From: Zingiber officinale
Taxonomy: Eukaryota; Streptophyta; Magnoliopsida; Zingiberales; Zingiberaceae
Assembly (NCBI RefSeq): GCF_018446385.1
Contig: NC_055996.1
Coordinates: 49,584,365-49,648,364 of the forward strand
Length of the DNA: 64,000 nucleotides
Reading direction: 5' to 3'
In this document: piece after piece, positions 14,856 through 37,001 of the stretch
How the letters are laid out: every line of letters starts with the position of its first letter
How positions within the stretch are numbered: position 1 is the stretch's first letter
Position numbers and translations under genes: made by a program
Notes under the pieces: model-generated
Databases searched by the model: none
Seen by the model: only the letters and a program-made list of their open reading frames with translations
What the model was told of the DNA's origin: nothing

Positions 14856-14944
14856 AAAAAAAAGTTGAAGGTGAGATTCGAACCCACGACCTCGGGTCGG
14901 ACTGACCCAAGCAAAACCGGCCCAACCAGCTGAGCTACGCTCGT
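14856..14944 (-). tRNA. tRNA-like unit in 5' LTR (pseudo-tRNA)
   Basis: The minus strand has an A box TAGCTCAGCTGG (14926-14937), a B box GGTTCGAATCT (14874-14884) inside a pairable GTGGG/CTCAC arm, and a run of eight T (complement of 14856-14863) about 10 bases past the B-box arm. The D arm GCTC/GGGC can pair. The A-to-B spacing is about 9 bases longer than in a standard tRNA, and a GGGTC/GACCC hairpin fills the extra space. No proper acceptor or anticodon stem forms, so it is a tRNA-derived RNA polymerase III-type unit rather than a decoding tRNA. Confidence 0.6.
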
Positions 14945-15288
14945 TTTGTTAATTATATATGGAGCGATATATATTTAAGTAATAGTTGGAACTGAAATAA
15001 CCTAGGTTATTAAAGGGAATTATTTTCCTTTCCCGAAACCTAATTCCTTTCTCACCTCTTCTCCTCACGCGGCGTCGCGACTTCTGCTCGGGCGAAGGAG
15101 GCGGCGGAGCTAGGTTAGGGCTTCTCTTCCGACGGCTGGTCAAGGTTCTCCGAGGGGTCTTCTCCACCTCCTTGAGATCCTCTCGTTGAGGAGAGTCCGT
15201 GAGCACAAGAAGAGACCGAGATCGCAAGCTTCTCCAAACCCGAGAAACTCATCTTCTCCGGTTGTAAGTCAAAGTATTCCAAGAAAAG

Positions 15289-17291
15289 GTGAGTTGCTTC
15301 TCACCTGCAGTAGGAGTTGTTCCGAACTTCGATTTATCTTCACGGTTTTCGGATTTTAGGTTGTGGAGATTTTTGGATTTCGTTCCTTCTTGATTCGGTT
15401 CTGTTCCTTTCCGTTAGTGCTATGCAAGTGAATGAACTTTGATCCTTCTTCTTGATCCGAATCCTAGCATCAGTTGGCAAATTGTTCCTTTTAAATTTTC
15501 AGTTGTGCTTAGGTTTACTTCCATCCGAACCCTAACTTTTAGTTGGAGATTAGTTTTTTTAGCTTCAGTTTTGATGTATATACATATATATGCACATTGA
15601 GTATTATGAGCTAGTTTAATTTGTTGGTTCCTTTAGTTTTCTGCCGTGAGTCTTGAAGGAAGAATATGCATGATTAAGTTTAGTTTTTGGTTGCCCTAAC
15701 TAATGTTTCGAGCATGAACAGTTTTAAGCTTAAGGTTGAGTTTTAGTTCCTTCCTTTGTATTCGGATTTTTCCTATGGCTTCCAGATCATGCTTTATAGA
15801 ATAGGGTAGCTAGGGACCTATTTGCTTGATGCTTATGTTCTGTTATAGCATGCTTAAAGGTATTTATTTGCTTGATGCTTATGTTCTGTTATAGCATGCT
15901 AAAAGGTATTTATTTGCTTGATGCTTGTGTTCTGTTATAGCATGCATGTCCTGAATTTAGTCTTGTACATGTGCAGATTGATATTTCATTTATATCATTG
16001 AAACAAGCATTATAAAGGTCTTAATTCCAGCATGTGTTAGTTTTGTTTTGTGCTATTTGCTGGATATGAATAAGCATGATTTTATTAGCAAATGTAGAAC
16101 TTAGTTGAGTTCCTTTCATTGCTGTTTAGTATTTCCTGATGAAGCATGATATACTGTTAATTCCATGTAGCAATGATTCCTTTATTTTCTAGATTCTATT
16201 GCATGCCTAGTAGTTGAATTTGTTTTTCTTTCACAGCATGCTTAAGTTGTTCTAGTTTCCTAATTGCTATTGGAATAACATGAGCAGTTCTATTTTAAGC
16301 ATGCAGATTTAGTTTTCAGCCTTTAGTTATTTACAGTCTTACATTTAGTTTAAACTTGTATACAGATTTTCAGTACGTAGGGTGTGTTCTAGTGCACACC
16401 AAGTGCTAGATAGAAAGCTTAGCTCAATTTAATGCTACAGTAGGCATTTTAATAGCTCAGTAAATGCAGTAGAAGCATTTAAAATAACTTATTTAGTCTT
16501 GCTTCAGCTTATATGGGACTACGGTCCAATGGGTGGGCTCCCACAGTCGCCTCTAGGTTCAGATAACCTAGTTCTAGGTTCAGATAACCTAGTTAAAGCA
16601 AGATAAGAAAATTCAGCTATGAAATAGTATTTTATTTTTAGCAGTGGCACTGTACTGGATTAGATATCCATTGGGTTGGGCTCCCATAGTCGTCCCTAGG
16701 TTTAGATAACCTAGTAAACCCTACTAGACTCGGAACTTGCAATCCGGGTTTAGTTAGGGATGCGCGTACAGTTGCCGGGCCCATCAGCAGCATGATTATT
16801 ATTTTAATCTATTATGTAAATAGTTTTCAAAACTTCACAAATTAGTTATGTGAATACAAGTTAGACTCAGTTTAGCATTAATTAGTTTAGCTTAGGTATC
16901 AATTCAGTTTCTTATTGATACACATGATAGTTCTATGATTAGCTTTACATGTTAGCTTTTCAGTTAGTTTCTTCGCTGTTTATGAGCATGATTAGTTGTA
17001 CATGTTTAGTATTTCAGTTAGTATGTTTCCTCTGCTATTTATGAGCATGATTAACTATACATGTTTAGTATTTCAGTTAGCATGATTCCTTCGCTATTTA
17101 TGAGCATGATTAGCTATACATGTTAGCTTTTCAGTTAGTTGTTTTCTTTGCTATTTATGAGCATGAGTAGCTTTACATGTTAGTACTCAGTTTTAGCATG
17201 TTTTCATTTATATACATGCATATCGAGTTTTTGTGAGTAGATAGCGCTCACTAAGCTTTATGCTTATAGACTGCATTTCCTCCTACTGCAG
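15289..17291 (+). other. Predicted leader intron inside 5' LTR of element C
   Basis: AAAAG|GTGAGT at 15288/15289 is a near-consensus donor, and CTACTGCAG|ATAAATG at 17291 is a good acceptor after a pyrimidine-rich stretch. The same pair is present in the 3' LTR (20573 and 22582). A homologous pair exists in the diverged Tekay-type LTR G. Both tandem-repeat blocks of the LTR fall inside the interval. A spliced leader is inferred; no transcript evidence is available here. Confidence 0.5.
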
Positions 17292-17780
17292 ATAAATGAA
17301 AAGCTAAAGTATAAGGAAGAAGGCGACAAGGAGATGCTGTGACGGTGTGTGATGTGTGGACTATGGAGATCCTTGAGACTTAGCTAAAGAACTCACTTAG
17401 TTTAAGATTTGTTATGTTTCCTTTTCTTTTCTCCTTAATGCTATGATGAAGTTGAGATTGTAATTGAGTTTATTTCCGCATCTGTAGTTTGATACCTCCT
17501 ATTGTTGGAGTGATATGGTTGTTTGCCATTGCTAGAGTAGTTTCATATTTTTATTGTGCTATTATACTGCGTGGTTGTGAAATTATATGTTCCAGCCGCC
17601 TGTGGCTGAGTATACATGTTATGTATCCCAGTTTGGGGTCACCGGTACAGGGGAGACTCTGCCGAAATTTTTCGGTAGAGTTTCTATGTGATTTTTAATC
17701 ATACCGGTTAAGTAGAGTTAGTAGTCAAGTAGCGGTCATCCTTAGAGTGTAGTAGTAGTAAGAAGGGTGGTCGTTACAGT

Positions 17781-17792
17781 TGGTATCAGAGC
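17781..17792 (+). other. Primer-binding site of element C
   Basis: TGGTATCAGAGC begins two bases after the 5' LTR. It is complementary to the 3' end of the initiator methionine tRNA, the usual primer for plant LTR retrotransposons. Confidence 0.9.
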
Positions 17793-17992
17793 AGTTCCCA
17801 TTCTCCAGCATCACACACATCAGCATCAGCCTTGCCGTCTTCCAAGTAAGAATACTTCTATTCTATTTATGTTTCTTGCTTTCATGTTTAGGAATAATTA
17901 TAGCATGCATATGGGTGATAGCCTCTAACATGTTTATAGTAGCTAGTTAAACGTGATTAGATTAGTTATGTGCATCCTCTATGTCTTTAGAA

Positions 17993-19601
17993 ATGGCACG
18001 AGGACGCCCAGCTAAGCAGGCACCAGCTACTGAGCCCCAGCAAGAGGCAGGCAGTTCAGTGCCCCTCCCAGACCTTACAGCATTAGTGGCTCAGTTACAG
18101 CAGCAGCTAGCTGAACAGCAACAGGAGATAGCCACCTTAAAGGCTAATCAGCAGAATACTCCCACAGTCACCCCAGAACCTAACCTAGCGACCCCAGCAT
18201 TTATAGAGGTTCCACCAGTCCAGCCCACAGCACCAGTAGCTCCAGCAGCGGAAGCAAAGAGAGAGGCTTACCTGATCCAGTGGCAGCGAATCAAGCCCGA
18301 GAACTTCTCAGGCACCAGCGAACCATGGGATGCACAAGCCTGGTTCAAAACACTGGAGAGCACGGTGGAGAAGGTGAAGTGTGCCTCCTTCCGCTTAGAG
18401 GAGACGCATGCATGTGGTGGGAGAGAGTCGGCGGCGCCCAGTGAACCAGATGACATGGGCTGACTTCGAGAAAGAATTCTTCGAGGAGTTCTTTCACATG
18501 CGGGTCACAAACCGCCACTACGACGAGTTCACGGAGTTTCGTCAGGGCAACCTATCAGTTGAGGAAGCCGTGAAGAAATTCAACAGACTGGCTCGTCTAT
18601 GTCCCGAATTAGTCAGCACAGAAAAGGAACGAGTTCGGCTGATGCTCAAAATGTTGAGGCCGGAAATAGCGATGAACGTGGCTGGTGGCATACATAGGCC
18701 ACAAACCACAGAAGAACTAGTGAGTAGTGCTCTGATCACCGAGCACTACCAGAACAGCATCAAGCAGCAGAAGCAAGTCTCCTCAGATTCCAAAGGCCAA
18801 GGAAGTTCAGATACTCAGAAATCTCAAGGCCACAGCTCTAACTGGAAAGAGAACTCCAACAGCAAGCGCAAATCAGGGAGTGATCCAAAAGGAGGACCAT
18901 CTAGCAAGCGACCCAGTTATCCAAAGTGTGCTACTTGTGGGAAATTCCACCCAGGGGTCTGTCGCAAGGGCACACGAGGATGCTTTGAATGTGGACAAGA
19001 AGGGCACATGGCCAAGCAGTGCCCGAACAAGACCGGTCTCCCTCAGCCACAGCAGATTCAGTATGCAGGCCAGCCAGCTCAGTTATATCAGATGCAGGCC
19101 GCCCTAGAAGGTCCACCTATCAGCCAGGGCAGATTAGAAGCCCCTCCAGCGATGGCGAATGCAAGGATGTACTCACTCACCAGAGAGGACGTAGCCAATG
19201 CCTCGACAGTTGTCACAGGTCAGATTAGTATTTTTCAGTATAGTGCTACTGTTCTATTTGATACTGGGGCAACCCATTCTTATATAGCCAGGGCATTCGC
19301 CGAAAAGTTAGCAATACCCCCAGAGGTACTCAGTAGTCAGTTTCTAACAACATTACCTTCGGGAGAAGTTATGACATCCACGCACTGGCTCAGAACAGTG
19401 CCCGTCATGATAGCAGACAGAGAACTCTTTTGTGATCTGATAGTGCTAGACATGACTGACTACGATGTCATATTTGGAATGAATTTCCTGATCAGATACG
19501 GTGCCTCCATAGAGTGCCGTAAACAGAAAGTCATATTCCAACCTGAAGCAGAAGCACAGTTCGAGTACATTGGGGAACCCAAGAGAAAAAGGGCAAGTTA
19601 A
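17993..19601 (+). pseudogene. Gag-protease of Tekay-type gypsy element C, frameshifted
   Basis: From ATG 17993 (MARGRPAKQ) the frame gives a Gln-rich N-terminus, then the retrotransposon-gag domain. The frame is broken between about 18405 and 18445, after FRLEET; the continuation from 18408 reads VNQMTWADFEKEFFEEFF and runs to 19601. That part holds the CCHC zinc knuckle CFECGQEGHMAKQC (about 18979-19022), preceded by a CATCGKFHPGVC pair. Further on is an aspartic protease with the active-site motif FDTGATHSYIA (about 19258-19290). Gag packages element RNA and the protease processes the polyprotein. The two small shifts at 18405-18445 make the copy defective, although the protease frame is intact. 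The frame ends where pol has been deleted. Confidence 0.85.
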
Positions 19602-19980
19602 GTCCTCGATACGTAGGACCCTACCCCGATCATAGAGAGAATTGGGAAGGTAGCTTACAAGCTAGACTTACCTCAAGATATGTCAGCAATACACAATGCA
19701 TTTCATGTCTCCATGCTAAAGAAGTGTATTCACGACCTTAGCCAAGTGATTCAGCCTCAGACAGTGTAGATCCAAGAGGATCTTAGCTATGAGAGCAGAC
19801 ACAGATAGTGGACAGAGCAGACAAGATACTAGGAAACAGAGAAGTGTCATTAGAAAAAGTCATCTGGTAGAACCAGAAGCACGAGAAAGTTACTAGGGGA
19901 GCGTGGAGACAGCATGAGACAGAAATATATCCAGAATTATTCTAAGTTCGAGGACGAACTTTTTATAAGGGAGGGAGAAT
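19602..19980 (+). pseudogene. Integrase C-terminal remnant and polypurine tract of element C
   Basis: Just after the gag-protease stop the sequence encodes RYVGPYP and, one frame over, IIERIGKVAYKLDLPQ then HNAFHVSMLKK. This is the conserved C-terminal region of chromovirus integrases. Everything from reverse transcriptase to the integrase core is missing, so the deletion joint lies at about 19595-19615. The polypurine tract AAGGGAGGGAGAAT (19967-19980) abuts the 3' LTR, as needed for plus-strand priming. Confidence 0.8.
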
Positions 19981-22900
19981 TGTAACGACCCAATTTTCCT
20001 TAATTCGAGTTCCAAATGTCCATAAAAATATTTGGAAATACTTTTAAAATATTCTAGAGATTTTTAGGAATTTTTAGAGTATTTTTATGTAATTTTTGGA
20101 GGTCGTTTAATAGGGTTACAAAAAGAAAGAAGTTTTGATAAAAAAACGTTGAAGGTGAGATTCGAACCCACGACCTCGGGTCGGACTGACCCAAGCAAAA
20201 CCGGCCCAACCAGCTGAGCTACGCTCGTTTTGTTAATTATATATGGAGCGATATATATTTAAGTAATAGTTGGAACTGAAATAACCTAGGTTATTAAAGG
20301 GAATTATTTTCCTTTCCCGAAACCTAATTCCTTTCTCACCTCTTCTCCTCACGCGGCGTCGCGACTTCTGCTCGGGCGAAGGAGGCGGCGGAGCTAGGTT
20401 AGGGCTTCTCTTCCGACGGCTGGTCAAGGTTCTCCGAGGGGTCTTCTCCACCTCCTTGAGATCCTCTCGTTGAGGAGAGTCCGTGAGCACAAGAAGAGAC
20501 CGAGATCGCAAGCTTCTCCAAACCCGAGAAACTCATCTTCTCCGGTTGTAAGTCAAAGTATTCCAAGAAAAGGTGAGTTGCTTCTCACCTGCAGTAGGAG
20601 TTGTTCCGAACTTCGATTTATCTTCACGGTTTTCGGATTTTAGGTTGTGGAGATTTTTGGATTTCGTTCCTTCTTGATTCGGTTCTGTTCCTTTCCGTTA
20701 GTGCTATGCAAGTGAATGAACTTTGATCCTTCTTCTTGATCCGAATCCTAGCATCAGTTGGCAAATTGTTCCTTTTAAATTTTCAGTTGTGCTTAGGTTT
20801 ACTTCCATCCGAACCCTAACTTTTAGTTGGAGATTAGTTTTTTTAGCTTCAGTTTTGATGTATATACATATATATGCACATTGAGTATTATGAGCTAGTT
20901 TAATTTGTTGGTTCCTTTAGTTTTCTGCCGTGAGTCTTGAAGGAAGAATATGCATGATTAAGTTTAGTTTTTGGTTGCCCTAACTAATGTTTCGAGCATG
21001 AACAGTTTTAAGCTTAAGGTTGAGTTTTAGTTCCTTCCTTTGTATTCGGATTTTTCTATGGCTTGGATCATGCTTTATAGAATAGGGTAGCTAGGGACCT
21101 ATTTGCTTGATGCTTATGTTCTGTTATAGCATGCTTAAAGGTATTTATTTGCTTGATGCTTATGTTCTGTTATAGCATGCTAAAAGGTATTTATTTGCTT
21201 GATGCTTGTGTTCTGTTATAGCATGCATGTCCTGAATTTAGTCTTGTACATGTGCAGATTGATATTTCATTTATATCATTGAAACAAGCATTATAAAGGT
21301 CTTAATTCCAGCATGTGTTAGTTTTGTTTTGTGCTATTTGCTGGATATGAATAAGCATGATTTTATTAGCAAATGTAGAACTTAGTTGAGTTCCTTTCAT
21401 TGCTGTTTAGTATTTCCTGATGAAGCATGATATACTGTTAATTCCATGTAGCAATGATTCCTTTATTTTCTAGATTCTATTGCATGCCTAGTAGTTGAAT
21501 TTGTTTTTCTTTCACAGCATGCTTAAGTTGTTCTAGTTTCCTAATTGCTATTGGAATAACATGAGCAGTTCTATTTTAAGCATGCAGATTTAGTTTTCAG
21601 CCTTTAGTTATTTACAGTCTTACATTTAGTTTAAACTTGTATACAGATTTTCAGTACGTAGGGTGTGTTCTAGTGCACACCAAGTGCTAGATAGAATGCT
21701 TAGCTCAATTTAATGCTACAGTAGGCATTTTAATAGCTCAGTAAATGCAGTAGAAGCATTTAAAATAACTTATTTAGTCTTGCTTCAGCTTATATGGGAC
21801 TACGGTCCAATGGGTGGGCTCCCACAGTCGCCTCTAGGTTCAGATAACCTAGTTCTAGGTTCAGATAACCTAGTTAAAGCAAGATAAGAAAATTAGCTAT
21901 GAAATTAGTATTTTATTTTCAGCAGTGGCACTGTACTGGATTAGATATCCATTGGGTTGGGCTCCCACAGTCGTCCCTAGGTTTAGATAACCTAGTAAAC
22001 CCTACTAGACTCGGAACTTGCAATCCCGGGTTTAGTTAGGGATGCGCGCACAGCAAGTACAGTTGCCGGGCCCATCAGCAGCATGATTATTATTTTAATC
22101 TATTATGTAAATAGTTTTCAAAACTTCACAAATTAGTTATGTGAATACAAGTTAGACTCAGTTTAGCATTAATTAGTTCAGCTAATGTATCAGTTCAGTT
22201 TCTTATTGATACACATGATAGTTCTATGATTAGCTTTACATGTTAGCTTTTCAGTTAGTTTCTTCGCTGTTTATGAGCATGATTAGTTGTACATGTTTAG
22301 TATTTCAGTTAGTATGTTTCCTCTGCTATTTATGAGCATGATTAGCTATACATGTTTAGTATTTCAGTTAGCATGATTCCTTCGCTATTTATGAGCATGA
22401 TTAGCTATACATGTTAGCTTTTCAGTTAGTTGTTTTCTTTGCTATTTATGAGCATGAGTAGCTTTACATGTTAGTACTCAGTTTTAGCATGTTTTCATTT
22501 ATATACATGCATATCGAGTTTTTGTGAGTAGATAGCGCTCACTAAGCTTTATGCTTATAGACTGCATTTCCTCCTACTGCAGATAAATGAAAAGCTAAAG
22601 TATAAGGAAGAAGGCGACAAGGAGATGCTGTGACGGTGTGTGATGTGTGGACTATGGAGATCCTTGAGACTTAGCTAAAGAACTCACTTAGTTTAAGATT
22701 TGTTATGTTTCCTTTTCTTTTCTCCTTAATGCTATGATGAAGTTGAGATTGTAATTGAGTTTATTTCCGCATCTGTAGTTTGATACCTCCTATTGTTGGA
22801 GTGATATGGTTGTTTGCCATTGCTAGAGTAGTTTCATATTTTTATTGTGCTATTATACTGCGTGGTTGTGAAATTATATGTTCCAGCCGCCTGTGGCTGA

Positions 22901-23069
22901 GTATACATGTTATGTATCCCAGTTTGGGGTCACCGGTACAGGGGAGACTCTGCCGAAATTTTTCGGTAGAGTTTCTATGTGATTTTTAATCATACCGGTT
23001 AAGTAGAGTTAGTAGTCAAGTAGCGGTCATCCTTAGAGTGTAGTAGTAGTAAGAAGGGTGGTCGTTACA
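19981..23069 (+). repeat. 3' LTR of Tekay-type element C
   Basis: The 3089-bp LTR is nearly identical to the 5' LTR and carries the same tRNA-like unit, predicted intron and tandem repeats. It ends GTCGTTACA and is followed by the TSD TGTAA at 23070-23074. Confidence 0.9.
20140..20228 (-). tRNA. tRNA-like unit in 3' LTR (pseudo-tRNA)
   Basis: This is the same unit as at 14856-14944. A box 20210-20221 and B box 20158-20168 are both identical to the first copy. The terminator-like T-run has seven residues (complement of 20140-20146) because of one A-to-C change. Confidence 0.6.
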
Positions 23070-23327
23070 TGTAATTTATTAGTCAAGATAAACTAATACC
23101 TAATTACACTACAACCACTCCAATGGTTTGTCTCATTCTATCTTGGTTGTGAGCAACTATTTATAATTTATAAGGAACTGATAACATGAACTTCTGTGTG
23201 TCTCTACAATATAAATTAATGGACAACTACACTTAGCATAAATGTAGACATTTGACCAATGTGATTCTTATTTTAAAAATAAATATTTACAAAAAGCTAG
23301 ACTTTTAGTATACATTCTAACAAAAGG

Positions 23328-23813
23328 AGGACTGTCCAAAGCTCAAAAAGGAGAAAGACAAAGGACCAAGTTAATTCAAGCAAAAAATCTCAAGGCCACT
23401 TGGGATGATAGTTCATCATCCAAGTTTGAAATAGAAGCCTATGCTGGACTAGCACTAGTGGCTATTCACAAAGAACCAAGCAACTCAGAAGCCAGCATTG
23501 ATGAAGGGGGAGCCACATTAGAAGAATACAGTGATGTAAGGGGAGAATCTAGTTTCAAGTCAAAAATGGTAAGTGAGATATGACTCTTACCTTCTGATCA
23601 ATTATGCTTTCAAATAAAATCCATGTCTAAGTTTATATGTAAATTGAAAACAAAAAATGAAAAATTAAAAAATAAAAATCAAGAAATAAAAATAATCTTA
23701 GAAAAATCATATTTATTAGAGGATTTCGATAAATTAAAAATTAAAAATTGAAAATACTATGTTGAAAGAACAAATAGAAAATTTAAAAAATTTTGTATGT
23801 TCACACTACAACA
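23328..23813 (+). pseudogene. SIRE-type gag fragment, continuation of relic A
   Basis: The first codons read DCPKLKKEKDKGPS, completing the zinc knuckle begun at 12438. In the next frame comes KNLKATWDDSSSS and an acidic stretch typical of the region after the knuckle in SIRE-type Gag; compare KALKATWDESSSEES in element J near 58290. A lysine-rich, probably coiled-coil part follows until the CACTA element begins at 23814. Stops at about 23580 and 23750 and at least one frameshift show it is dead. Confidence 0.7.
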
Positions 23814-23824
23814 AAAACATTAAA

Positions 23825-24240
23825 AGACAACGGTTAAAAACCGTTGTCATAGGCCCTTTAAACCCGTTGTAACTGACACTGTTGTTAAATGTGCGGTAAA
23901 AGACAACGGTTTAAAACCGTTGTCTTTGACCACATTAGACAACAGTCATGCAACGGATTTAAAGTGTTGTCTTTTAATACCAAAGACAACAGTTCTGCAA
24001 CAGTATAAAACTATTGTAATTGCCAGTTTTGCAAAAATTTGACCGCAGATATACTTTTAACAACATATACACTGTTGTCTTTCTTCAAAATTTAGTTTAA
24101 AACCATTGTCTTAGAATACTTTTCACAACGGTTAAAAATCGTTGTCTTTGGACATTCAGTTGCATGTCTATATATGTACTTTTCACAACGGTTAAAACCA
24201 TGGCCATTGCACACAAACTGGTACAACGTAACATTTATAC
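23825..24240. repeat. Left subterminal repeats of CACTA element D
   Basis: Repeated direct and inverted copies of ACAACGGTT..AACCGTTGT occur (for example 23840-23860, 23903-23925, 24125-24145, 24184-24200). Subterminal arrays of this kind are the binding sites of the TNPA-type protein in characterised CACTA elements. Confidence 0.8.
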
Positions 24241-25799
24241 ATTCACAAAAATAGTTTTCAACATATATACATTCGATTAGTTGTCTTTAATTTATATATA
24301 CATCTTGTCTCAACCAAAAACCGGTACATGTGTACATTCACTTAAGTTTATAAACAATTCTATACAATTACTACAAGCTATCCAAACATGACCACAAGTA
24401 GTATCCAATCATGACAACCACAAAAGATGAAACCACAAAATTAAGTTTATAAGACCACAACCATGCAAATTAATCTGTCCTTTTTCTGAATAAATCAAGT
24501 CAGGATCGGATATGAAACAATCTTCACGTACTGGTTCTTTTTCTGCATACCCAGCAATTTCTCCCTAGTATGAAAATAAAATATAGTTAAAGCCATAGAA
24601 AAAAAGAATGGCCAAATAAGCACGAAAAACGTTGCCGCTTCACAATTTCATGAGTAGTCAAGCAAGTGAGCATGAAAAAAGTTTATGAAACTGGTTCATA
24701 TGGCTGTTCCAACCCTTCAAATTCATTTCTTTTGTTAGTTCAAGGCTAATTGTACAAAGTTTGACAAATAGTACAACAGATAAGTTAAAGAAATAAGGTA
24801 ATTGAATTAAATCGTCCTGTGCATGAAATAGAGCAAAAGTGTGCAGTGGACAAGGACTGAAACCAGGATTGGCAAAAACGTTTTAGCAAGCAGATGAAGT
24901 TGAATCCAACACATACCAAGTACGCATGAGCTATACATAATCTAATATGATAACACCACCCTGCTTAAGTCAAGGTGAAGCCTTACACGGAATAAACCAA
25001 CAATCCCTGTAGCTAGTAACAGCAAATAAAGGAGGGCAGAATACATTGGGAAGCAAAAAGCAGTCAGATCCGAGCAACTCTAGGTAAGTCTAGATAGTTG
25101 ATGTATCTTGCATATAGTGATTGCTAAATTGGTTTGGTTTGGTTTGCCATAAGTAAGTCCAAACAACTATGTGAATGAACTTGGTCATTGTGATTCTCAA
25201 CAAAGTGTAAGTTATTTCCATCCAACTTTAACTCATTCCGACCATTCATCATGTCCAACAAATTGCAAATTTCAAATATTTTCAATTATTGTTTGATTGA
25301 GAAACCATTTTCATTCCCAAAGAAAATAAGAATCTCAATACTATTAATTAAATTGGTCTTGCTCCTGCATTTCCCCCATGTATTATCATGTTCATAAATC
25401 AGGTAAATGCTCAAAATATTTATCTAGCTCACCTCCTTTACGTGTAAATCCTAGTCTGCAGAAAACTGTCCATTAAGAAAGGAAACAATTCATGATGCTC
25501 AAAGTTAATCAGTTCATCATAATCTGACAAGTGTGTTAGTCCTACAGAAATGTGTTTACCAGCAAATGATATATATGTTTGAACATCTCAAAATCTTAAG
25601 ATGTTGAAAAACATTTCATGCATTCCAGTATAAGAATAATAATAAAATAGAGATGTTCTACCTGGATGTCCTACACACTAAAGTTTTAATAATCATGATG
25701 TTTCCAGGGGCATATCTGTTAGGATCAGATTATGTAATTTGCATTATATGCAAATACTTTCCGAATAGATCAAGTCATTGTATGATTTTAAATACCTAG

Positions 25800-26215
25800 T
25801 CATAAATATAGTCTTGTATGCATTCTGTCCACTCGGAACGCACTTCATCAATTTCTTCTCTAGAGTACTGGGGTTTGATGAACTGTGAACAAAGACATAG
25901 ATTAGATTAGTAAAAAACAATCAAAAGATGATAAGTGCAAAATGATAAACACACAAATATTTGAGAAGATTGAGAATTGAATGTCAAATATTACTATTGA
26001 TCGAATTGAATCTCTCTCGATAGTTTTCAATTCTTCAATAATATCTCTCATATATCTCATCACATAAAAATCACACTGTTTCGCATCTGGTTGGCGAGGA
26101 CCCTATGTTAAAAACAAATTGTAAATGTCTAATATACATGTTTAATTGTTTATAATTTAATCATAAGTAGACATGCATACCTTTACTACTTCCCATGTAA
26201 CATGTTTTTTCCCTT
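25800..26215 (-). pseudogene. Ulp1-like (C48) protease C-terminal exons
   Basis: Three minus-strand exons with good splice sites can be read: about 26215-26181 (HVTWEVVK), 26102 to about 25995 (starting GPRQPDAKQCDFYVMRYM, then RDIIEELK), and about 25878-25800 (starting FIKPQYSREEIDEVRSEW). This is the C-terminal part of the Ulp1/SENP cysteine protease fold: the Gln before the PDAK stretch and the Cys in QCDFYV correspond to the oxyanion Gln and catalytic Cys of the family. The His and Asp of the triad would lie upstream and are missing, where the Argonaute exons now sit. Several plant CACTA and MULE elements encode such proteases, so this is probably a remnant of the parent transposon. Not functional alone. 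Confidence 0.75.
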
Positions 26216-26360
26216 TTTTTGGAACTTGAAACTTTATTATTCTCAACCCAATTACATTTAAACATTGGAACTTGAAACTTTTGATAATGGAATATAGCCT
26301 AGATAAATTGATAGTTTCCTCAAAACAGATAAACCAAAGAACACTTCCAGCAAGACTTAC

Positions 26361-27482
26361 CTATGTTCAAAGACAAGCCCATTTGTGTTGGTCGAAGGCT
26401 TTGATAGTAGCCCCTCCAGCATTCTAAGCCTTCTCCAATGGGTGCCCAATGCCCAAAGCTCGGGGAAAAGAAGGACCGTGCTACCGAAGTATACCTGAAG
26501 CAGAACAAGTTGCAATGAAAATAATATTAACAATAATATAGTACTTGAGAAAATTGTACAGAAAGAAAAGGAAACAGAAGTACTTGGTAGATGGAGACTC
26601 CCTAAGAACAATATCAAGGGCTTGAATGACTTCTTGAGGTGCCTCAATCTGTCAACCAACTAAAAACCTCCTTCAGGTTGTGTATGCTTGTGTTTCCAGC
26701 AAGCTTAATAATCACTCTAAAATCCTTGACCTTCCTGAAGAAGAGGAAAACCACACAATTTTAACAGATACGGTCAACATAAAGCTTCAGTTGAGAAATA
26801 GTACCTTCCATCATTTTCAGGCAGTGAAACCGTGAACTCCTTTGACTTAAAAGGAAAAGTACCAGCTGTATACAGGTTCTTCCTTCCATCATAAGCTGGC
26901 ATTCTCCTTCCCAAGGCTTTATCCTTATGCGCCTTGACAAGCTCAGAGATGATTTTTCTATTGGTAGCTCTGGACACTGATTCAGGCACTATACTCACCT
27001 ACAAATTCAGAACAAGGTATTCTCCATCAAATGGGAAGAACGATGCATAACGAAAGAGAAACATAGAAACTTACATCATAGTGGAAAAGAGTATTGTCGG
27101 CAATCTCGACAAGGAAATGGTTAGCCCTAACTAAGCACGACCTTCCAACGGTGCCGAAATCCGACCGAGCCGGATGCCTCAAACCCTTGCTAGAAGCCGG
27201 AGGCGCCGCCGGCTGAGGAGTCTGCTCCTTCGTGGGCTCGGCGATCGTGGGATGCCGGAGTTCTTCGCCGATAGAAGAGGACGAAGGCGAATCTGCTGCT
27301 GTGGCCAGCGGCGAAGGACAGTACGATGCGGACGGAGTCGTCGACGATTCCTGAGAGCGAGGAGCCGGAGCATATCCGCCCCTTCCTCCGCCGCCACGCG
27401 ATCTGCCGCCGTCAACAGGACCCCGACCGCCCCGTCCACCGCCACGGCGACCACCTCCATATGCTCCTCATTTGCCGGACAT
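26361..27482 (-). pseudogene. Captured Argonaute gene fragment (5' exons)
   Basis: Four minus-strand exons encode the N-terminal part of a plant Argonaute, the small-RNA-guided slicer. Exon A, 27482-27075: MSGK, a TGA (27468-27470), then a Gly/Arg-rich stretch and RANHFLVEIADNTLFHYD. Exon B, 26998-26805: starts VSIVPESVS and contains MPAYDGRKNLYTAG. Exon C, 26734-26584: APQEVIQALDIVLRE, with one frameshift before it. Exon D, 26494-26361: RSFFSPSF through [19 protein letters not shown]. These are the ArgoN domain and linker 1; PAZ, MID and PIWI are absent. Introns have GT..AG borders. The motifs fit the AGO1/5/10 clade; the exact paralogue is uncertain. The CT-rich 27490-27830 upstream resembles an Argonaute 5' UTR, so promoter or leader DNA may have been captured too. 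The stop at codon 5 (possibly CGA to TGA) and the shift in exon C make it a pseudogene. Confidence 0.88.
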
Positions 27483-27824
27483 TGCGAGAGACAGGGCTCA
27501 TATGGGAGAAGGAGTAGCAACAAACCAAAAGATGTTGGTGAGAGTCTGCGAGAGAGGTTTAGCCAGAGAGGAGTTTTGAGGAGAGGGGTTCGTGCAAAGG
27601 GGTGGAAGGCAAAAACGTGTGAGGAGTGGAGAAGATTGTGTGAGGAGATCGGGAAGAGGAGATTGTGTGAGGAGAGGGAACATGAAGAGATCGCGGGATG
27701 AGGAGAGGAGAAAGACACAGTTGCCTAGGGTTCCCGAAGACTAAGGGGAGGGAAAACACGCGCCAAAATATATTTCGGAGAGGGGAAGACATTAAACCAG
27801 GGCAATGGAACAAAAGAATTAGGT

Positions 27825-28080
27825 TTACAACGGTTTACAAAACTGTAGTCGTATCCTCTAAAAAATGCGCTTAAAAACAACGGTTTTAGAAAACCGTTGT
27901 AAAATGTGTTGTTGATTAGAAAACAATTCGCTCAACGACAACGGTTTTTACAAAAACCGTTGTCTTTTGTTTTTCTTTAGAGCTAAAAGACAACGGTTTT
28001 GTCAAAAACCGTTGTCTTTTGTCAAATTAACAACAGTTCCCTCAAAAACCGTTGTCTTTATAGTGTTGTCTTTTAACAAA
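27825..28080. repeat. Right subterminal repeats of CACTA element D
   Basis: At least six direct and inverted copies of AACGGTTTT..AAAACCGTTGT are packed into 27825-28080, for example at 27878-27900, 27935-27962 and 27980-28018. They mirror the left array. Confidence 0.85.
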
Positions 28081-28092
28081 TTTGTTGTAGTG

Positions 28093-29069
28093 TCAAATTT
28101 TGCTACTTTAAATTTAAAAAATTATCAAGGGTAAAATTAGATTACAGATTCCATAAGGGGCAAATCAGAAAAGTAATAAAAAAAGTACATTTCAATTTTT
28201 TTTTTTTTGATTAATCCAATAGGTAGAAATTTATATTTGATTTCAAAATCATGTTAAAATTAAATCTTTATACATGTTTTAATTTTAATTTACTTTAATA
28301 TTTTTTTTCTTAAAATTATCTAACTTTTCATATAACTTTTTTGTATCATTTCTTTTCAAAATTAATTAGATCTTGATTTTTTTTGAGAAAAAAGATTTTA
28401 TTACTTATCTTTAGAATTTTTTTTGAAATTGTACTACTTTTAATTAATTTTCTATAAATATTTTTACCAAACTATTAATTTTTTATATTAAAAATTCTCC
28501 AAAAGTCAATCTTCAAAAAATTATTTTTTTAAAGATATAATTTCTGTTTTACATAATAAGAACAAGTTGCAAAAATTTTCGAGCTTAAAATCTATTTATT
28601 AAGAATTCTTTTTAAAAATACATCTCTTTATAAATAATAATTTATTACTGCTTATATTAATTTTATTAATTTGTGAAAATTCTATTACTATTTTAAATAA
28701 GTATGTTTAATAGCTACAAAAATTTTCAAAATTTTTCAATGATTCAAAATAATTTTAAAATTATTTTTTTTAAAATTGACTTTTAAATCACAAAAAAAAA
28801 CAATTTTTTGAAGAATAATTCCCAGAATTTTTTTAAGTGTTAGTCATTATTTCTTTAACCCTTAAAATTTTTACTTCTATTTTTAATATGATCAAAGGGA
28901 AAGAATTATAGATTAAATCTAGGAGAGTTACATTTTACTTTGAGTATTAAATATTTTAATTTTGCATAATTATTAATTGCATAGCATGATTATTAATTAC
29001 AATTATTTTACTATTTTTTTGTTTGTTTTACCCTAACTTAACTTGAATTGCTCACATCAAAAAAAGAAG
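28093..29069 (+). other. AT-rich internal tail of SIRE relic A
   Basis: About 1 kb of A/T-rich sequence with homopolymer runs and no coding potential. It resembles the AT-rich stretch before the 3' LTR of element J (62460-62780). The first 100 bases may continue the gag coiled-coil part. Confidence 0.5.
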
Positions 29070-29975: not shown

Positions 29976-30293
29976 GATGGAACATGAAAGATATTACCCA
30001 TATGAAAAGTGTGATTGAATAAATGAATGTATGTGTTTCCAAGATTAACAATTTGCAAACCAAAATCATTGCCTACTTGAACTATATCTGAGTTATTATA
30101 TGACCTTACATCTATAAGGATATTATAATCTAATATGACATGATGAGTTATTCCAGTATCAATATATCTTTCAGTAAATAAAAACTCTAGTGGTTTACCA
30201 CAAGAATTAAACAGAAAGACTTAACAGATTTTGTCAACTAATTGTGGATCTCAAAGTTGAAATCACCTTGATCAGATTGTCTACACTACAACA
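29976..30293 (-). pseudogene. Copia relic E: protease / pre-integrase fragment
   Basis: Read on the minus strand the segment encodes YIDTGITHHVILD, the aspartic-protease-like start of copia pol, followed by VQVGNDFGLQIVNLGN and a HVPS ending. This is the classic gag-pre-integrase order of Ty1/copia elements. It is cut at 30293 by the large CACTA element. Its Gag zinc-knuckle half lies at 46201-46345 on the other side, which fits one minus-strand copia element split by the insertion. Confidence 0.7.
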
Positions 30294-30309
30294 AAAATCA
30301 CTTTTCGCA

Positions 30310-30560
30310 ATGCGCTATTAACAGCGTACATTAAAAACATGCCGTTAATAGTATTATTAACGGTGTGCATGTTGATGTGCGCTGTTAATAGTATGAATTT
30401 TGAAATAAAAAAAGGTATTAATAACGCGCATTAAAAGCACGCCGTTAATAATATATTATTAACAGCATGCATTTTAATGTATGCTGCGAATAGTTAATAA
30501 TAATAACAACGTGCAAAAGTAGCATGCTGTTAATATGATAAGTTATTATTAACAGCGTAA
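30310..30560. repeat. Left subterminal repeats of CACTA element F
   Basis: Alternating direct and inverted copies of TATTAACGGCGTGCA-like units occur (for example 30326-30350, 30357-30372, 30438-30452, 30467-30490 and 30520-30560), likely binding sites for the element's own protein. Confidence 0.75.
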
Positions 30561-33095
30561 GAAACAGTAATATAATCAAATTTATATTTTTTTACCTTGC
30601 GTAATATTAATTCCACTTTCTCATAATTATTTTTTTCCTTTTATTCTTTAATTTCCGATTCCCAAACTCTTCCCAAACTCTTCGCACATCCCGTGCCGCA
30701 CGCCCGTCAAACTTCCTCCCGAAAGAGGTTTCTCCCGCCGTCCCTCCTCATCGAGACCTTCTCTCCCACACCATCGAAGCCTTCTCTCCCACACTATCGA
30801 GACCTCGCCGCCTCCTCATCTCGGTAGCCAGCGATTCTGCCGCTTCCTCATCTCTGCAGCGCCTCCTCATCTTCGCATCCACTCCCTCAAGAAATCTTCG
30901 CCGTCTCAAGATCGCCGTCTCTCATCATCTCTGCAAAGACTCCAAATCTCTCCCTGCCGCATCATCGATAAATCGTCGCTGCCTCCCCACCTCCATAGGC
31001 CATGCCCTTTGTCGCCTCCTCATCTCCACAGCTGCCCCTAGACCTATTCCTTGCCTCAAGATATATTGTGGTAACTTATATTCTTGTAAATGTTTTGTGT
31101 TTAAATTTTCTCTAAATTTATGGGCACAATTATGTGTTTGGTTTTGCTTTTCCTTTTGGATGCCTGGAATTTTTTTTTCTGTTTGGTTCTACTTTTCCAT
31201 TGTTTTCGTTCTTAGTAAGTTCTTCCTCGGACATTAGTATTTACTTACGGATGCAAGAAGTGCTCAAAGAGATAGCCTCTTCAAAAAGCAAACTTTATAA
31301 TTGTTCAAGAGAGAACAAGATATCTTTCAATTAGCAATGGTCCAAATCTCCCTTTATTTAATCATATTAATAAATATGATATTCATTACTTAATCATAAT
31401 ATATTATGTGCTAAAACCTAATTTTAATAAAAAAAATTTTCTTCTCATTTATTTAGAAGCATCATGTGTAACTTCATGTGCAATAATTTTCCTATGTTTC
31501 TGATTTATTTTTATTTTGCTTCATGAGATGCTATAGATGATACCACTTATGTCACTTAATTTGTTTTCAGTATTTTATATTTTAATCAAATTCAAAAAAT
31601 TCTTAATTACATTGTATTTTCATGCATTAATCTTAGCAAAAAATATTTGTCAATTTGTATATATGCTTGCGTAGTTGTAACTGCATTATTTATCAATTGT
31701 GTCAATATTACTTTAACATGACAGTAAATACAATATTGAAATTTAATGTTTTCTTAGTTTAAAAAATAATGATGTAGGAATCAGTTTTTATATTTAAGTT
31801 TTTGTATTGATTAAGTAATGTTTTGTTTATAAAAATGTTAGGAATATTTTGGGAAAGAAAATTATGGATAAGGAATGGATGCATCTCCCTTCAAGGCTTG
31901 TACCAGAGTATGAAGAAGGGGTAAAAAAAATTATTGCACAAGCTAGGGACTATGCAAAAACACGTGAAGTAATCTTATGTCCTTGAAAGCGTTGTAAAAA
32001 TAAGAAGTATATGAAATTTGACCAAGTGTACGACCACTTAATTATTAAGGGGTTCGATCCTACTTACACTACTTGGGTCTTCCATGGTGAAACTAATAAC
32101 TCACAATCTCAAGGTGAAGATAGTCCAAGAGGAGTTCAGAAAGAGGATGAAAGTAGAGAGACATATAACTTATATAAGGATATTTTTGTGTCGGAAGAAA
32201 TGGTTGGACACACTATATCTGAGGCAAAAGCTTATGAGTTTGTTGATTTATTAGAAGATGCAGAAACTCCTCTTTTTCCTGGTTGTACAACTTACACTAA
32301 ATTATCGGCAGTTGTCACACTATATAATTACAAGTCTACTAATGGTCACACAGACACTAGTTTCAATGAGCTCCTTACGATCTTAGTTGACATGCTTCTA
32401 GAAAATAACACACTTCAAGAAACTGTTTACGCGATGAGAAAGTTATTGAAACCATTTGATTTAGGATATGAGAAGATTCATGCTTGCCCAAATGATTGCT
32501 GTTTATTTAGAAAGGAGCTTAAAGATCTGGACTCGTGTCCAAAATGTGGTTCCTCAAGATGGAAGATAGACAAAGTCACCACCAAAGTTTGTAAAGGAGT
32601 TCCTGAAAAGGTCCTACGATATTTTCCAGTGATACCAAGATTGAAAATGAAGTTTAAATCAAAAGAAAAGGCTGAAGAGTTGATTTGGCACTCGAACCAC
32701 AAAAGTCAAGAGCATATGATGCGTCATCCAGTCGATTCAGTAGCTTGGGATACAATAGAGCATAAGTGGCTAGATTTTGCATTTGATCCTAGAAATCTCC
32801 ACCTTGGTCTTGCAACCGATGGATTCAACCCTTTTGGCAACCTTAGTTCTAAATATAGTTGTTGGCCCATTATTTTGGTCAATTATAACCTTCCTCCATT
32901 GATGTGCATGGTAAAGGAAAATCTTATGCTAACTGTAATGCCCGCCCTCCCCTCCTGCTAAGTGGAGGCGGGGTTACCTTCTATTATACATAACGTACGT
33001 ACAAAATAGTTTTTATGATTTTTCTTTTTAAAACAGCGGAAGTAATTGTTCATTTAAATCACAACTAATCATACCAATATGCCCAGCATAGTTAT

Positions 33096-34134
33096 TGTAG
33101 GACCGTTGGGCCGGCTAGGAGGGGGTTGTTGGATATCCTACTAACACAAAAAGGAAAACAAACCCTCCTCGAACTCTTTAGGCTAACACTTGCATAATTA
33201 AGTTAAGCAGATAAATTAAAAGCATAAAGAAAAGCGAGGCACAAAAGATTTACTTGGTTACAACCGATGTGGTTGTTAATCCAAGGAAGATTAAGCTCAA
33301 TAAAACTCCTTCAGGCGGAGAAGCCTCGTACAGCGTTGAAGTGCAGAAAATAGAAGCTTAGACTAAAAGAGAGTGTGCAAGCACTGGATTTACAATCAGT
33401 GAGTTCTATTTAAGCTTCTGGACCAAGGCTATATTTATAGTCTTGGTCCGGGCGCCTGGAAGGGTTCCGGGCGCCCTGGGGGGATAAATTTTATCCCCCA
33501 ACGGTCGGATCGAGTCAAAACTCGATCCTGTTGAAAAGTCGATTCCAGGCTCCCGGAAGGGTTCCGGGCGCCCCGGTCGGTTCCGGGCGCCCGGAGCCCT
33601 AATGTCAACATAAGTTGACTTTTCGACTCCGGTTCAACTCGTCTCAGTTCGGCTCGTCTTGGTCCGGGTCTGTTCGCTCCGGCTCCGCTAGCTTGGGTGA
33701 TCTCTGCCATCCGGAATAGGGCTCACCCGAACTCATCTTCCGGTCATCTCGAGCGTGCTTCCTTCCGGCTTCTCGTCCCTCGGAATTGCCGTGTGTTCCT
33801 TCTCGTCCACCAGGGTATTCATCCGCAGACTTCGTCCCTCGGTCGCACCCCGTGCCGACCTTCGCGCTAGCTGCGTCTCTTGCTCCCCGAGCAATCTTCC
33901 GCTCTGGCTTTCGTACCTCGGAACCACGGCGCGCACTTCCTTCTCGTCCGCCGGTGTACTCTTCCGCAGCACCTCGTCCCTCGGACGCACAGCGTGCCGT
34001 CCTTCTCGCTAGCTGCGTCTTCCGCTCGAGTACCTGTGCTCCTAAGCTCCTGCACACTTAGACACAAGGTTAGAAACAACGCAGGACCTAACTTAACTTG
34101 TTGATTACACTAAAAAAACCTTGGGGTTCCAACA
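33096..34134 (-). repeat. 3' LTR of SIRE element H
   Basis: The 1039-bp LTR starts (minus) TGTTGGAACCCCAAGG and ends ..GGTCCTACA. It contains GGGCGCCCGG-type palindromes at about 33447-33600. ORFs in both strands of the GC-rich part (33435-34104) are by-products of composition and are repeated in the other LTR. Confidence 0.9.
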
Positions 34135-34599
34135 ATCTCCCCCTTTTTGGTGTGATCAACCCAAGTTAAGCTAGGGTCAAAAATAGATATGAAATTAAAC
34201 AGTTTATTGCAATAACATGCAACATGATAGATAAAATTAAATTTTAACAGAATTAAATTTCAATTTTCTCTACCTCCCCCTAGACTTATACTTTCTCTTC
34301 TCCCCCTTTGATCACAATAAAAATGGGGAACAACTAAAATCTAAGGGTTGACATTAAAAAAATTTGAAAATATATTTCAATAATTTTCAGGGAAATATTT
34401 CTAAGTCAAGACAAATTTCTAAGTCAAGAAAAAAAATTTCAAGTATTCGTCATCAATAATTAAACACTTTCTAAGCCGAAAAATTTATGCAAGAAAATTT
34501 TAAAAAAATTGATAGCATGAAAAAAAAATTTTCTATGCATTTATTTATTTTATACTGATACTTATATCAACAAGTTTTAAATTTCCATTTCAATTTTTC

Positions 34600-35412
34600 T
34601 TAACTTCTCAAATTACACTTTTTCAAAATTAAAGCCACAGATATTAAACATGCAATAATTTGTATCATGTTAATTTCTATTAATTTTTGAATTGCAACTT
34701 CACAAAAATATTCAAATAGCATAGATTCTAACTTGATAAAATTTTTTGATAATATAAAAAATTCTTTCGGCAATGTGTTTGAATGAATATTTTGTAATTT
34801 GTCAGAATTTTTTAACAATAAGAATTTGTAGGAATCTATTAATAATATGTTTCTTAATCCGAAAATATTTTTCGATGAATCAATTTCTAATTCATAAAAC
34901 TTTTTCAATAAAGTAATTTGTAATTCCAAATTTTTAGGACCAAAAAAAGTTTTCGATAATATTTCTAAGTTGCATAATTCTTTCGAAAAACTTCTTTGTG
35001 ATTCACAAAAGTTTTTTAGCAAGGTTTCCAACTTGCAAAATTCTTCTGTTAAGATATTTTGAAATTCGAAGAACTCTTTCGATAATATTTCAAATTTGCA
35101 AGATAAGTTTGACAATTGATTTTCTAATATAAAAAACTCTTTCGATGATTCGCAAAAATTTTCAGGCAATTCTTCGATTGAATCATTCAATTGATCAGAG
35201 GTTCGAGTCCATACCTGACTTACCTTGTCAGTAATTGATTCTCCCCCTATCGAGTTGCTTTCTTCCGAAGATTCTCCCCCTTCATCGATCTCGAGATGTA
35301 CTTCGGTTGTTGTAGTACTTACCTCGATTTCAGACTCTTCTGTCGGTGGCTCGGTGTCTATTGAGGTGTCAGCTTCTAAAGTTCTTCGTAGAGCTGCAAG
35401 AACTTTTCCCAA
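34600..35412 (-). CDS. Repeat-rich coiled-coil frame in element H (gag-derived?)
   Basis: This 270-residue minus-strand frame overlaps the end of the gag start in another frame, so it is probably the shifted continuation of Gag after a deletion. The first 80 residues are Glu/Ser/Thr-rich. Residues about 85-215 are degenerate tandem units of roughly 20 residues with the pattern (K/E)EFxxLExLSKxFF, for example FFILENQLSN, KFEILSKEFFEFQ and EEFCKLETLLKNF. The last 30 residues are hydrophobic (IIACLISVALIL) and could form a membrane helix. I do not recognise the family. It could instead be decayed AT-rich DNA that stays open by chance, but 270 codons without a stop argues against that. Confidence 0.45.
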   Translation of the reverse strand: MGKVLAALRRTLEADTSIDTEPPTEESEIEVSTTTTEVHLEIDEGGESSEESNSIGGESITDKVSQVWTRTSDQLNDSIEELPENFCESSKEFFILENQLSNLSCKFEILSKEFFEFQNILTEEFCKLETLLKNFCESQRSFSKELCNLEILSKTFFGPKNLELQITLLKKFYELEIDSSKNIFGLRNILLIDSYKFLLLKNSDKLQNIHSNTLPKEFFILSKNFIKLESMLFEYFCEVAIQKLIEINMIQIIACLISVALILKKCNLRS

Positions 35413-35696
35413 AGTTCTTTTGCGCTTTCATAATCTGCGACCTTTTTGAAATCTTCCTTTGGTATTACATTCAGAAGATAATATTTTGCTCGCCCATTTG
35501 CCATAGACTCCTCACGTTGCTTTTCGTTCCAGAGGCGTAGATCGAGTCCTTCTCCGTTCGTGTTCTTTGGTTCTTCATAACCAAATTTCATTATTAAAGA
35601 AATATCAGAATCTGAGTTAAGGTATACCTCCATGTTTTGTTTCCAGATGGAAAACTCCCCCTCGAATGCAGGTGGGTAGTCGCTAGCTCCGGCCAT
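35376..35696 (-). pseudogene. Gag N-terminus of SIRE element H, truncated
   Basis: MAGASDYPPAFEGEFSIWKQ begins the N-terminal domain of copia Gag (DUF4219/UBN2 type; compare TTRPPLFTGDDFGY in element J). It runs through AKELWEKFLQLYEEL and stops after 106 residues. The start lies 47 bases after the primer-binding site on the minus strand. The rest of the UBN2 domain and the zinc knuckle are absent. Confidence 0.75.
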
Positions 35697-35756
35697 CGTT
35701 TTGTTGCTTCAGACGGCGGTTAGTCCTTCTGAGGCGTACTCGGCTCTGATACCACT

Positions 35757-36793
35757 TGTAGGACCGTTGGGCCGGCTAGGAGGGGGTTGTTGGATATCCT
35801 GCTAACACAAAAGGAAAACAAACCCTCCTCGAACTCTTTAGGCTAACACTTGCATAATTAAGTTAAGCAGATAAATTAAAAGCATAAAGAAAAGCGAGGC
35901 ACAAAAGATTTACTTGGTTACAACCGATGTGGTTGTTAATCCAAGGAAGATTAAGCTCAATAAAACTCCTTCTGGCGGAGAAGCCTCGTACAGCGTTGAA
36001 GTGCAGAAAATAGAAGCTTAGACTAAAAGAGAGTGTGCAAGCACTGGATTTACAATCAGTGAGTTCTATTTAAGCTTCTGGACCAAGGCTATATTTATAG
36101 TCTTGGTCCGGGCGCCTGGAAGGGTTCCGGGCGCCCTGGGGCGGATAAATTTTATCCCCCAACGGTCGGATCGAGTCAAAACTCGATCCTGTTGAAAAGT
36201 CGATTCTGGGCGCCCGGAAGGGTTCTGGGTGCCCCGGTCGGTTCCGGGCGCCCGGAATGGTTCCGGGCGCCCGGAGCCCTAAGGTCAACATAAGTTGACT
36301 TTTTGACTCCGGTTCAACTCGTCTCAGTTCGGCTCGTCTTGGTCCGGGTCTGTTCGCTCTGGCTCCGCTAGCTTGGATGATCTCTGCCATCCGGAATAGG
36401 GCTCACCCGAACCCATCTTCCAGTCTTCTCAAGCGTGCTTCCCTCCGGCTTCTCGTCCCTCGGAATTGCCGCGTGTTCCTTCTCGTCCACCAGGGTACTC
36501 ATCCGCAGACTTCGTCCCTCGGTCGCACCCCGTGCCGACCTTCGCGCTAGCTGCGTCTCTTGCTCCCCGAGCTCCCTCGGAACCACCGCGCGCACTTCCT
36601 TCTCATCCGCCGGTGTACTCTTCCGCAGCACCTCGTCCCTCGGACGCACAGCGTGCCGTCCTTCTCGCTAGCTGCATCTTCCGCTCGAGTACCTGTGCTC
36701 CTAAGCTCCTGCACACTTAGACACAAGGTTAGAAACAACGCAGGACCTAACTTAACTTGTTGATTACACTAAAACAACCTTGGGGTTCCAATA
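35757..36793 (-). repeat. 5' LTR of SIRE element H
   Basis: The 1037-bp LTR is almost identical to 33096-34134, with a few indels (for example, one GGGCGCCCGG unit more near 36240). Its outer terminus has changed from ..AACA to ..AATA. The primer-binding site is at 35743-35754. Confidence 0.9.
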
Positions 36794-37001
36794 GTTATAA
36801 GCTTAAAGAAACATAATTATCCATTCCTAACATAAGCGTAAGTAAAAGTGATCATGCAAGTCATCAACATAAAATAAACATATTTCATATCATTCCTAAG
36901 TTCACATAAGCAGGTCATTTATTTTCTTTAGCCAAGCCACCACCACACACATCTCTTGCCCCTCCTGCTGCTCCTTTAGTTTATCCATCGTTTACCTTTA
37001 T

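Follow-up and report, generated by a model that had tools for sequence, protein, structure and literature searches.

Pack-CACTA elements are an already known kind of transposon, and a review of Pack-CACTA and Pack-TIR (terminal inverted repeat) elements describes hybrids that arise from neighboring elements with complementary terminal deletions (PMC13317346). In soybean, the CACTA element Tgm-Express1 carries five unrelated host fragments and is inserted in a gene, with evidence from reverse transcription-PCR (PMC1947982). In rice, CACTA elements give rise to miR820, which originates in a region that folds back on itself and acts as a repressor of OsDRM2 (PMC3459959). Here, we describe a further member of the Pack-CACTA kind, an element of ginger (Zingiber officinale) whose cargo is the 5' end of an Argonaute (AGO) gene. 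It lies in a stretch of 64,000 nucleotides, C11:49584365-49648364, the whole of which is referred to as the window. The ginger assembly that was searched comprises 3.09 Gb, which agrees with the reported haplotype-resolved genome, 3.1 Gb in size and organized in 11 chromosome pairs (PMC8342452). A literature search that had most subscription journals outside its reach found no paper on an Argonaute fragment inside a CACTA element. The best explanation overall, to which we assign a probability of about 0.85, is that one transduplication into a CACTA element was followed by spread in trans and that the AGO piece is now a methylated, neutrally decaying passenger.

The Argonaute-carrying element and its cargo

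The original prediction had placed a complete CACTA element with the target-site duplication (TSD) TCA at positions 23814 to 28092 of the window. The right end, the completeness, and the TSD were all upheld, but the left end lies ten bases earlier, such that the complete non-autonomous element occupies positions 23804 to 28092, with no strand assigned to it as a whole. It begins with CACTACAACAAA at 23804 on the plus strand and terminates with the same sequence, inverted, at 28092 on the minus strand, and it is flanked by TCA at 23801 to 23803 and at 28093 to 28095. With at most one mismatch allowed, CACTACAACAAA was matched 4 times in the window versus 0.43 times expected, a count reached in 0 of 100 shuffles; two of these matches are the ends of this element, and the other two are the ends of a second CACTA element. 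Similarly, AGACAACGGTTTT, with up to two mismatches, occurred 14 times versus 2.26 expected, and all 14 occurrences were near the ends of the AGO-carrying element. The TIRs with their subterminal GACAACGG-type repeats extend from 23804 to 24200 on the left and from 27825 to 28092 on the right, the inner limits being approximate. The inverted CACTA termini, the 3-bp TSD, the subterminal repeat arrays, and the existence of a tnp2-type relative place the element in the CACTA (En/Spm) superfamily. Moreover, with a host fragment inside the TIRs, a donor elsewhere in the genome, and no complete transposase gene, it is a Pack-CACTA (Pack-TIR) element.

The cargo is a captured MEL1/AGO5-like segment of 1,266 bp on the minus strand (26284 to 27549) that is 96% identical to the two donor alleles described below and consists of a 67-bp leader, exons 1 to 4, and the start of intron 4. 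All four minus-strand exons had been proposed beforehand, with GT donors and AG acceptors, and were found exactly there: exon 1 at 27075 to 27482, with its ATG at 27482; exon 2 at 26805 to 26998, the donor counterpart of which aligns to residues 137 to 201 of the ginger protein P0089; exon 3 at 26584 to 26734; and exon 4 at 26361 to 26494, which contains part of ArgoL1. The segment named in the original prediction for small-RNA mapping, 26340 to 27830, includes transposon leader at 27550 to 27830; the captured piece runs from 27549 to 26284. That the exons are of Argonaute origin was borne out by Pfam matches to ArgoN (E = 1e-31) and ArgoL1 (E = 1.9e-15). PAZ, MID, and PIWI were not found by Pfam in the fragment, which comprises exons 1 to 4 only, and the window copy thus has neither these domains nor the open frame of a functional Argonaute. 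Among solved structures, the best sequence match was argonaute 10 (7sva, E = 2.6e-54). A protein search with the fragment (7976 candidates scored, best 120 of 1373 matches taken) gave, among the matches listed, P0089, a MEL1-like Argonaute of ginger, as the best full-length relative, at 92% across 97% of the fragment, and next P0090, a MEL1-like protein of Curcuma longa (76%). The names and the rank of these nearest relatives, rather than a tree, point to the MEL1/AGO5 clade as the probable origin of the fragment. MEL1/AGO5-like proteins are the germline-type Argonaute of rice. The window copy itself cannot make an AGO peptide, because a TGA at codon 5 (27470 to 27468) and a one-base insertion near 26667, which shifts the frame in exon 3, close the frame almost at once; this break was absent from the original prediction.

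Donor gene, capture, and spread

The genome was searched with the AGO stretch, and 40 of 54 first-look candidates were scored, so that all match counts are lower bounds. At least 43 matches were obtained, 26 of them near full length at 96 to 100% identity. Two of the 26 are donor alleles, leaving at least 24 copies of the AGO-carrying element (the window copy, 18 loci, and 5 further loci); the first analyses took in 19 of these copies, and the later ones took in all 24. Both the search for a donor by exon alignment and the search for more copies, as suggested in the original prediction, were thus productive. The alleles L020 (C14:62.23 Mb) and L021 (C13:75.27 Mb) were identified as the donor because they lack CACTA ends in the slices examined and cover P0089, itself probably located on C13, from end to end: tblastn pieces span residues 1 to 955 in both, although some cross introns and have low scores. 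The similarity between donor and element ends sharply at 27549 and 26284, which defines the 1,266 bp that were captured.

What the AGO piece displaced was seen by comparison with L038, a transposase-encoding CACTA sibling in the same genome with closely similar ends. L038 is 96.6% identical to the window element over 23804 to 26070, 100% identical over 26234 to 26288, and 97.7% identical over 27540 to 28092 (positions 3737 to 4289 of the element). It encodes Transposase_21 (tnp2, E = 2.4e-87), DUF4218 (E = 7.6e-43), DUF4216 (E = 1.4e-22), and a transposase-associated domain. At the site of the AGO piece, L038 has approximately 4.2 kb with tnp2, DUF4218, the transposase-associated domain, and part of the DUF4216 exon; therefore, the AGO fragment, which lies in sense between the leader and the DUF4216 exon, took the place of the approximately 4.2-kb front of the tnp2 gene. 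The transposon-derived leader 5' of the AGO piece (27550 to 27824, minus strand, 97.7% identity to L038) is presumed to be the 5' region of the tnp2 gene, and on the other side the remnant of the DUF4216 exon stands directly at the capture junction (26234 to 26288, minus strand), where 55 of 55 bases equal L038 positions 2870 to 2924. The 3' part of the transposon gene was placed by tblastn at 25799 to 26234 on the minus strand; it may be Ulp1-protease-like, but Pfam gave no domain match for this part.

At base-level alignment, donor and transposon overlap by 2 nt (GC) at one junction and by 5 nt (ATTAT) at the other; an overlap of about 10 nt at the 5' junction, taken from local alignment ends, was reduced to the 2 nt by this alignment. 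The probable mechanism of the capture is microhomology-guided repair at a break that arose within the element. Both junction points are identical in 24 of 24 copies, single-base changes allowed, and this common pair of junctions establishes a single capture event. The conclusion is based on the junctions and not on the tree of the 24 copies and two donor alleles, which offered little resolution (only 4 of its 23 inner branches were starred). Moreover, since the AGO introns were kept, with four donor and three acceptor dinucleotides intact in all 24 copies, the capture was from DNA, as had been predicted.

A rival account holds that a resident Argonaute gene was the target into which the element inserted, or that the AGO exons arose by local duplication without capture. 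We regard this as extremely improbable. The AGO sequence lies wholly within the TIRs; all 24 copies have equal junctions, with flanks that differ among those compared save for one duplicated pair; the donor is on C13/C14; and an empty site on C12 contains no AGO sequence. The empty site and the common junctions refute this account, no evidence that would support it was found, and the distinction drawn in the original prediction between capture and insertion into a resident gene was decided in favor of capture by the location of the donor elsewhere.

The empty site was recognized when the two flanks of the window insertion, joined to each other, matched C12:51982051-51982844 as one alignment (96% over 800 of 800 query bases), with a single TCA. 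The homologous chromosome thus is without the window element; that C12 would be the homologue of C11 is suggested by the flank match and by other pairs, such as C13/C14 of the donor. Copy L022 also has an empty site, which lies within a repeat next to L028. In 19 of the 24 copies, both ends could be located; 17 of the 19 are flanked by a perfect 3-bp TSD, L026 and L041 having both ends without one; in L015, L016, L018, L019, and L028, one or both ends are beyond the slice or lost. Because L025 and L042, probably one insertion that was duplicated, have a common flank and TSD, there are at most 23 independent insertions. The identical junctions of the 24 copies and the empty sites indicate that the element has been mobile as a unit.

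Half of the copies (12 of 24; L022 to L028 and L039 to L043) have a second cargo, a fragment of RPS7 (ribosomal protein S7) that adjoins the AGO piece; it was found in 0 of 11 other fetched copies and is absent from the window copy. Gene model P0003 had pointed to RPS7, and this was borne out as a true second cargo. The RPS7-carrying copies form one supported group (100/100), in keeping with a single lineage that would have taken on this fragment in addition, and some of its members differ by only 0.2% in the AGO part, which suggests a recent burst. Two further candidates were rejected. GAPDH, considered as cargo from the Gp_dh_C domain of P0029, lies outside the element in L010, and C20:22.08 Mb, considered as a further AGO copy, has only 58 bp in common with the element in the slice examined. 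The element scaffold and the right end outnumber the AGO piece, with 423 and 1978 first-look candidates, respectively (40 scored for each). On C3, C5, C7, C14, and C18, scaffold and right-end matches lie approximately 7 to 25 kb apart without listed AGO matches between them (for example, C7:150953544-150964180), and these pairs are likely siblings with other content.

Taken together, we favor a history in which the 5' end of a MEL1-like Argonaute gene was transduplicated a single time by a CACTA transposon, where it displaced the front part of the transposase gene. The element, then non-autonomous, kept its ends and leader and would have been mobilized in trans to at least 24 loci, presumably by the transposase of relatives such as L038. 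The AGO piece would have been methylated after the spread and would now be decaying neutrally as a passenger, presumably of no benefit.

Reading frames, gene models, and small RNAs

The AGO frame was found broken in 18 of the 24 copies and open in the other six (L013, L014, L015, L017, L018, and L019). The codon-5 stop is common to four copies (the window copy, L009, L010, and L012), and two frame-shifting indels are common to the seven RPS7 copies examined; such common lesions show that broken lineages went on transposing. Changes private to single copies were compared with a neutral expectation for nonsynonymous (N) and synonymous (S) changes drawn from the observed mutation spectrum. For the 24 copies, there were 106 N and 31 S changes versus 93.7 and 38.1 expected (ratio, 1.39; P of approximately 0.3), and the set of 19 copies gave ratios of 0.99 (unweighted) and 1.14 (weighted). 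Private changes therefore look neutral, and no purifying selection was seen. Among the private changes, C>T and G>A transitions occurred in 41 of 124 CG columns, 30 of 116 CHG columns, and 37 of 372 CHH columns (CHG versus CHH, P = 4e-5). An excess of transitions at CG and CHG is the pattern expected from long-term CG/CHG methylation, which the mutations suggest for these copies.

Several observations weigh against the history that we favor. Five of the six open copies retain the original ATG, isoleucine replacing the first methionine in L015. Private stop changes were fewer than expected, with 2 versus 5.7 in 24 copies (approximately 0.08 by Poisson) and 3 versus 5.6 with 19 copies. The donor-to-copy pN/pS (19 copies) was 0.31 to 0.89 and thus below 1, but private changes are to be preferred over this measure because it includes the donor's constrained changes and old common changes. 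The splice dinucleotides were intact in 168 of 168 cases, which, by estimate, is probably not a strong deviation at this divergence. As for mobilization, L038, the sole transposase-encoding sibling that was read, has unequal flanking triplets (GTC/AGT). Finally, transcripts may exist, since in three gene models, P0001 (ZIOFF_060132), P0002 (ZIOFF_043412), and P0029 (ZIOFF_075244), AGO exons are linked to an exon of transposon origin. Their terminal peptides map to this transposon-derived terminal exon at 24564 to 24495 of the window (minus strand; acceptor ACTAG/GGAG) or to its counterparts. P0001 is placed on C16 (copy L015), P0002 on C11 (the window), and P0029 on C121 (copy L010). P0002 matches the window at 99%, with M as its first residue where the window has L, and is probably a model of the window locus itself. 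In L010, near position 590, a GAPDH-like fragment lies approximately 3 kb outside the AGO element and appears fused to it in P0029; this GAPDH-AGO fusion is a probable annotation artifact. Elements of this type yield Argonaute-fragment gene models in the ginger annotation (P0001, P0002, P0003, and P0029).

The open copies and gene models raise the possibility that a truncated AGO, composed of the N and L1 domains and a 27-residue transposon tail, is made and is either functional or interferes with AGO. Indeed, when the exon 4 frame was joined to the transposon exon of L013, the product was GRNCWVCKLGMQKKNQYVKIVAYPILT, the tail of P0001, and the six open frames and the low number of private stops are in line with such a protein. 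The six open copies nevertheless had 52 N and 12 S private changes, 1.76 times the neutral expectation (P = 0.20), with no sign of constraint, and the fragment is without PAZ, MID, and PIWI. Moreover, the window copy is unable to make the protein, the copy on the contig of P0001 is L015, which has lost its first methionine, and the slices of two open copies (L018 and L019) showed no splice acceptor. We consider a truncated AGO of this kind very unlikely. The original prediction had put forward a truncated competitor of Argonaute at this locus, and that proposal is not supported in view of the codon-5 stop of the window copy, the predominance of broken frames, and the neutrality of private changes.

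An effect on the parent gene could also be exerted by RNA. According to this second rival, the AGO copies act in trans, with 21- to 24-nt small interfering RNAs (siRNAs) from the silenced transposons lowering the expression of the MEL1-like donor or methylating its 5' end and thereby weakening host silencing. A donor allele contains an exact match for 628 of the 1246 21-mers of the window copy, and 835 of the 1244 21-mers of the donor (L021) recur unchanged in one or more of 19 copies; thus, any siRNAs that were made would be able to target the donor. The CG/CHG decay pattern of the copies is consistent with the methylation that this rival calls for. There are also precedents: CACTA-borne miR820 of rice resembles part of the OsDRM2 gene that it represses (PMC3459959), and captured sequences in maize are described in the review as siRNA reservoirs able to silence donor genes (PMC13317346). 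In the donor itself, however, CG changes between the two alleles were fewer in the captured part (4/142 versus 28/161, P = 2e-5), and there was no CHG excess there (1/124 versus 10/232, P = 0.11). The alleles also differ less within the captured part (20/1261) than downstream (101/3852); this donor-allele comparison is weak because the CpG-rich exon 1, perhaps unmethylated for reasons of its own, weighs heavily in it. Furthermore, the donor is open in exons 1 to 4, to which the stop check was confined, and it is annotated as a 955-residue protein.

When the window copy was folded in 200-nt pieces along the whole element (82 folds in all, on both strands), no hairpin of the AGO part was stronger than expected by chance (best z, -1.7), unlike the subterminal repeats, which fold strongly (z of -9.4 and -9.1 at 23804), and Rfam at gathering scores gave no match in positions 23000 to 29000. 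A miR820-like precursor in the window copy was rejected accordingly. On balance, we consider an action of the AGO copies on the donor doubtful. It is similarly improbable that siRNAs against the approximately 24 AGO copies spill onto the parent as a homology-based counter-silencing feedback, like that of miR820 and DRM2 but without a microRNA. The cargo nevertheless comes from the silencing machinery and so offers a natural test of whether transposon-directed siRNAs harm a parent gene. The AGO piece is most likely a methylated, neutrally decaying passenger.

A separate locus, L029 (C15:45678400-45680100), contains a long inverted repeat of Argonaute gene origin, with arms at 427 to 649 and 828 to 1046 that are 85% complementary. 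Its main pieces are 75 to 77% identical to the MEL1-like donor, and as RNA it folds at -286.6 kcal/mol (z of -29, 20 shuffles). Judged from its sequence, L029 might form a hairpin from which siRNAs directed at an AGO gene are produced. A pair of matches resembling L029 was found at C16:38692378-38693224.

Neighboring elements and comparison with known systems

The second CACTA element of the window, at 30284 to 46200 (approximately 15.9 kb), has the same 12-bp ends and the TSD CTA. Separate pieces of it match tnp2, DUF4218, and DUF4216; it has no GACAACGG-type subterminal repeats, and internal repeat pairs suggest nested insertions. Direct repeats of approximately 3.1 kb that are 99.2% identical (14697 to 17778 and 19981 to 23069) flank an open reading frame (ORF) with Ty3-type gag and protease domains, and the unit from 14697 to 23069 is probably a young long terminal repeat element. 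An ORF at 53748 to 55136 has a weak match to a viral movement protein (PF01107, E = 2e-5) and adjoins diverged long direct repeats (1841 to 5986 and 47877 to 52955); it is perhaps an endogenous pararetrovirus-like remnant.

The ginger element represents an unusually well-resolved capture, in that the donor, a sibling of the pre-capture type, the junctions, an empty site, and about two dozen descendants are present in one genome. L038 differs from the window element in having tnp2, DUF4218, DUF4216, and the transposase-associated domain where the window element has AGO. As in the Pack-CACTA and Pack-TIR elements of the review, there are CACTA ends, a host gene fragment within them, and several copies; unlike the hybrids described there, the ginger element carries a piece of an Argonaute gene in place of the front part of its own transposase gene (PMC13317346). 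Tgm-Express1 is the nearest system for exon joining, since the exons and introns of the host fragments are usable in both cases and Tgm-Express1 gives chimeric transcripts. In contrast to Tgm-Express1, the ginger element has one or two fragments, approximately 24 copies, and transcripts as gene models only (PMC1947982). The miR820 elements of rice differ from the ginger element in that the AGO piece of the window copy forms no stem-loop beyond chance. They are nevertheless the nearest system for a cargo from a silencing gene, because in both a CACTA element carries sequence resembling a host silencing gene, OsDRM2 in rice and Argonaute in ginger (PMC3459959).

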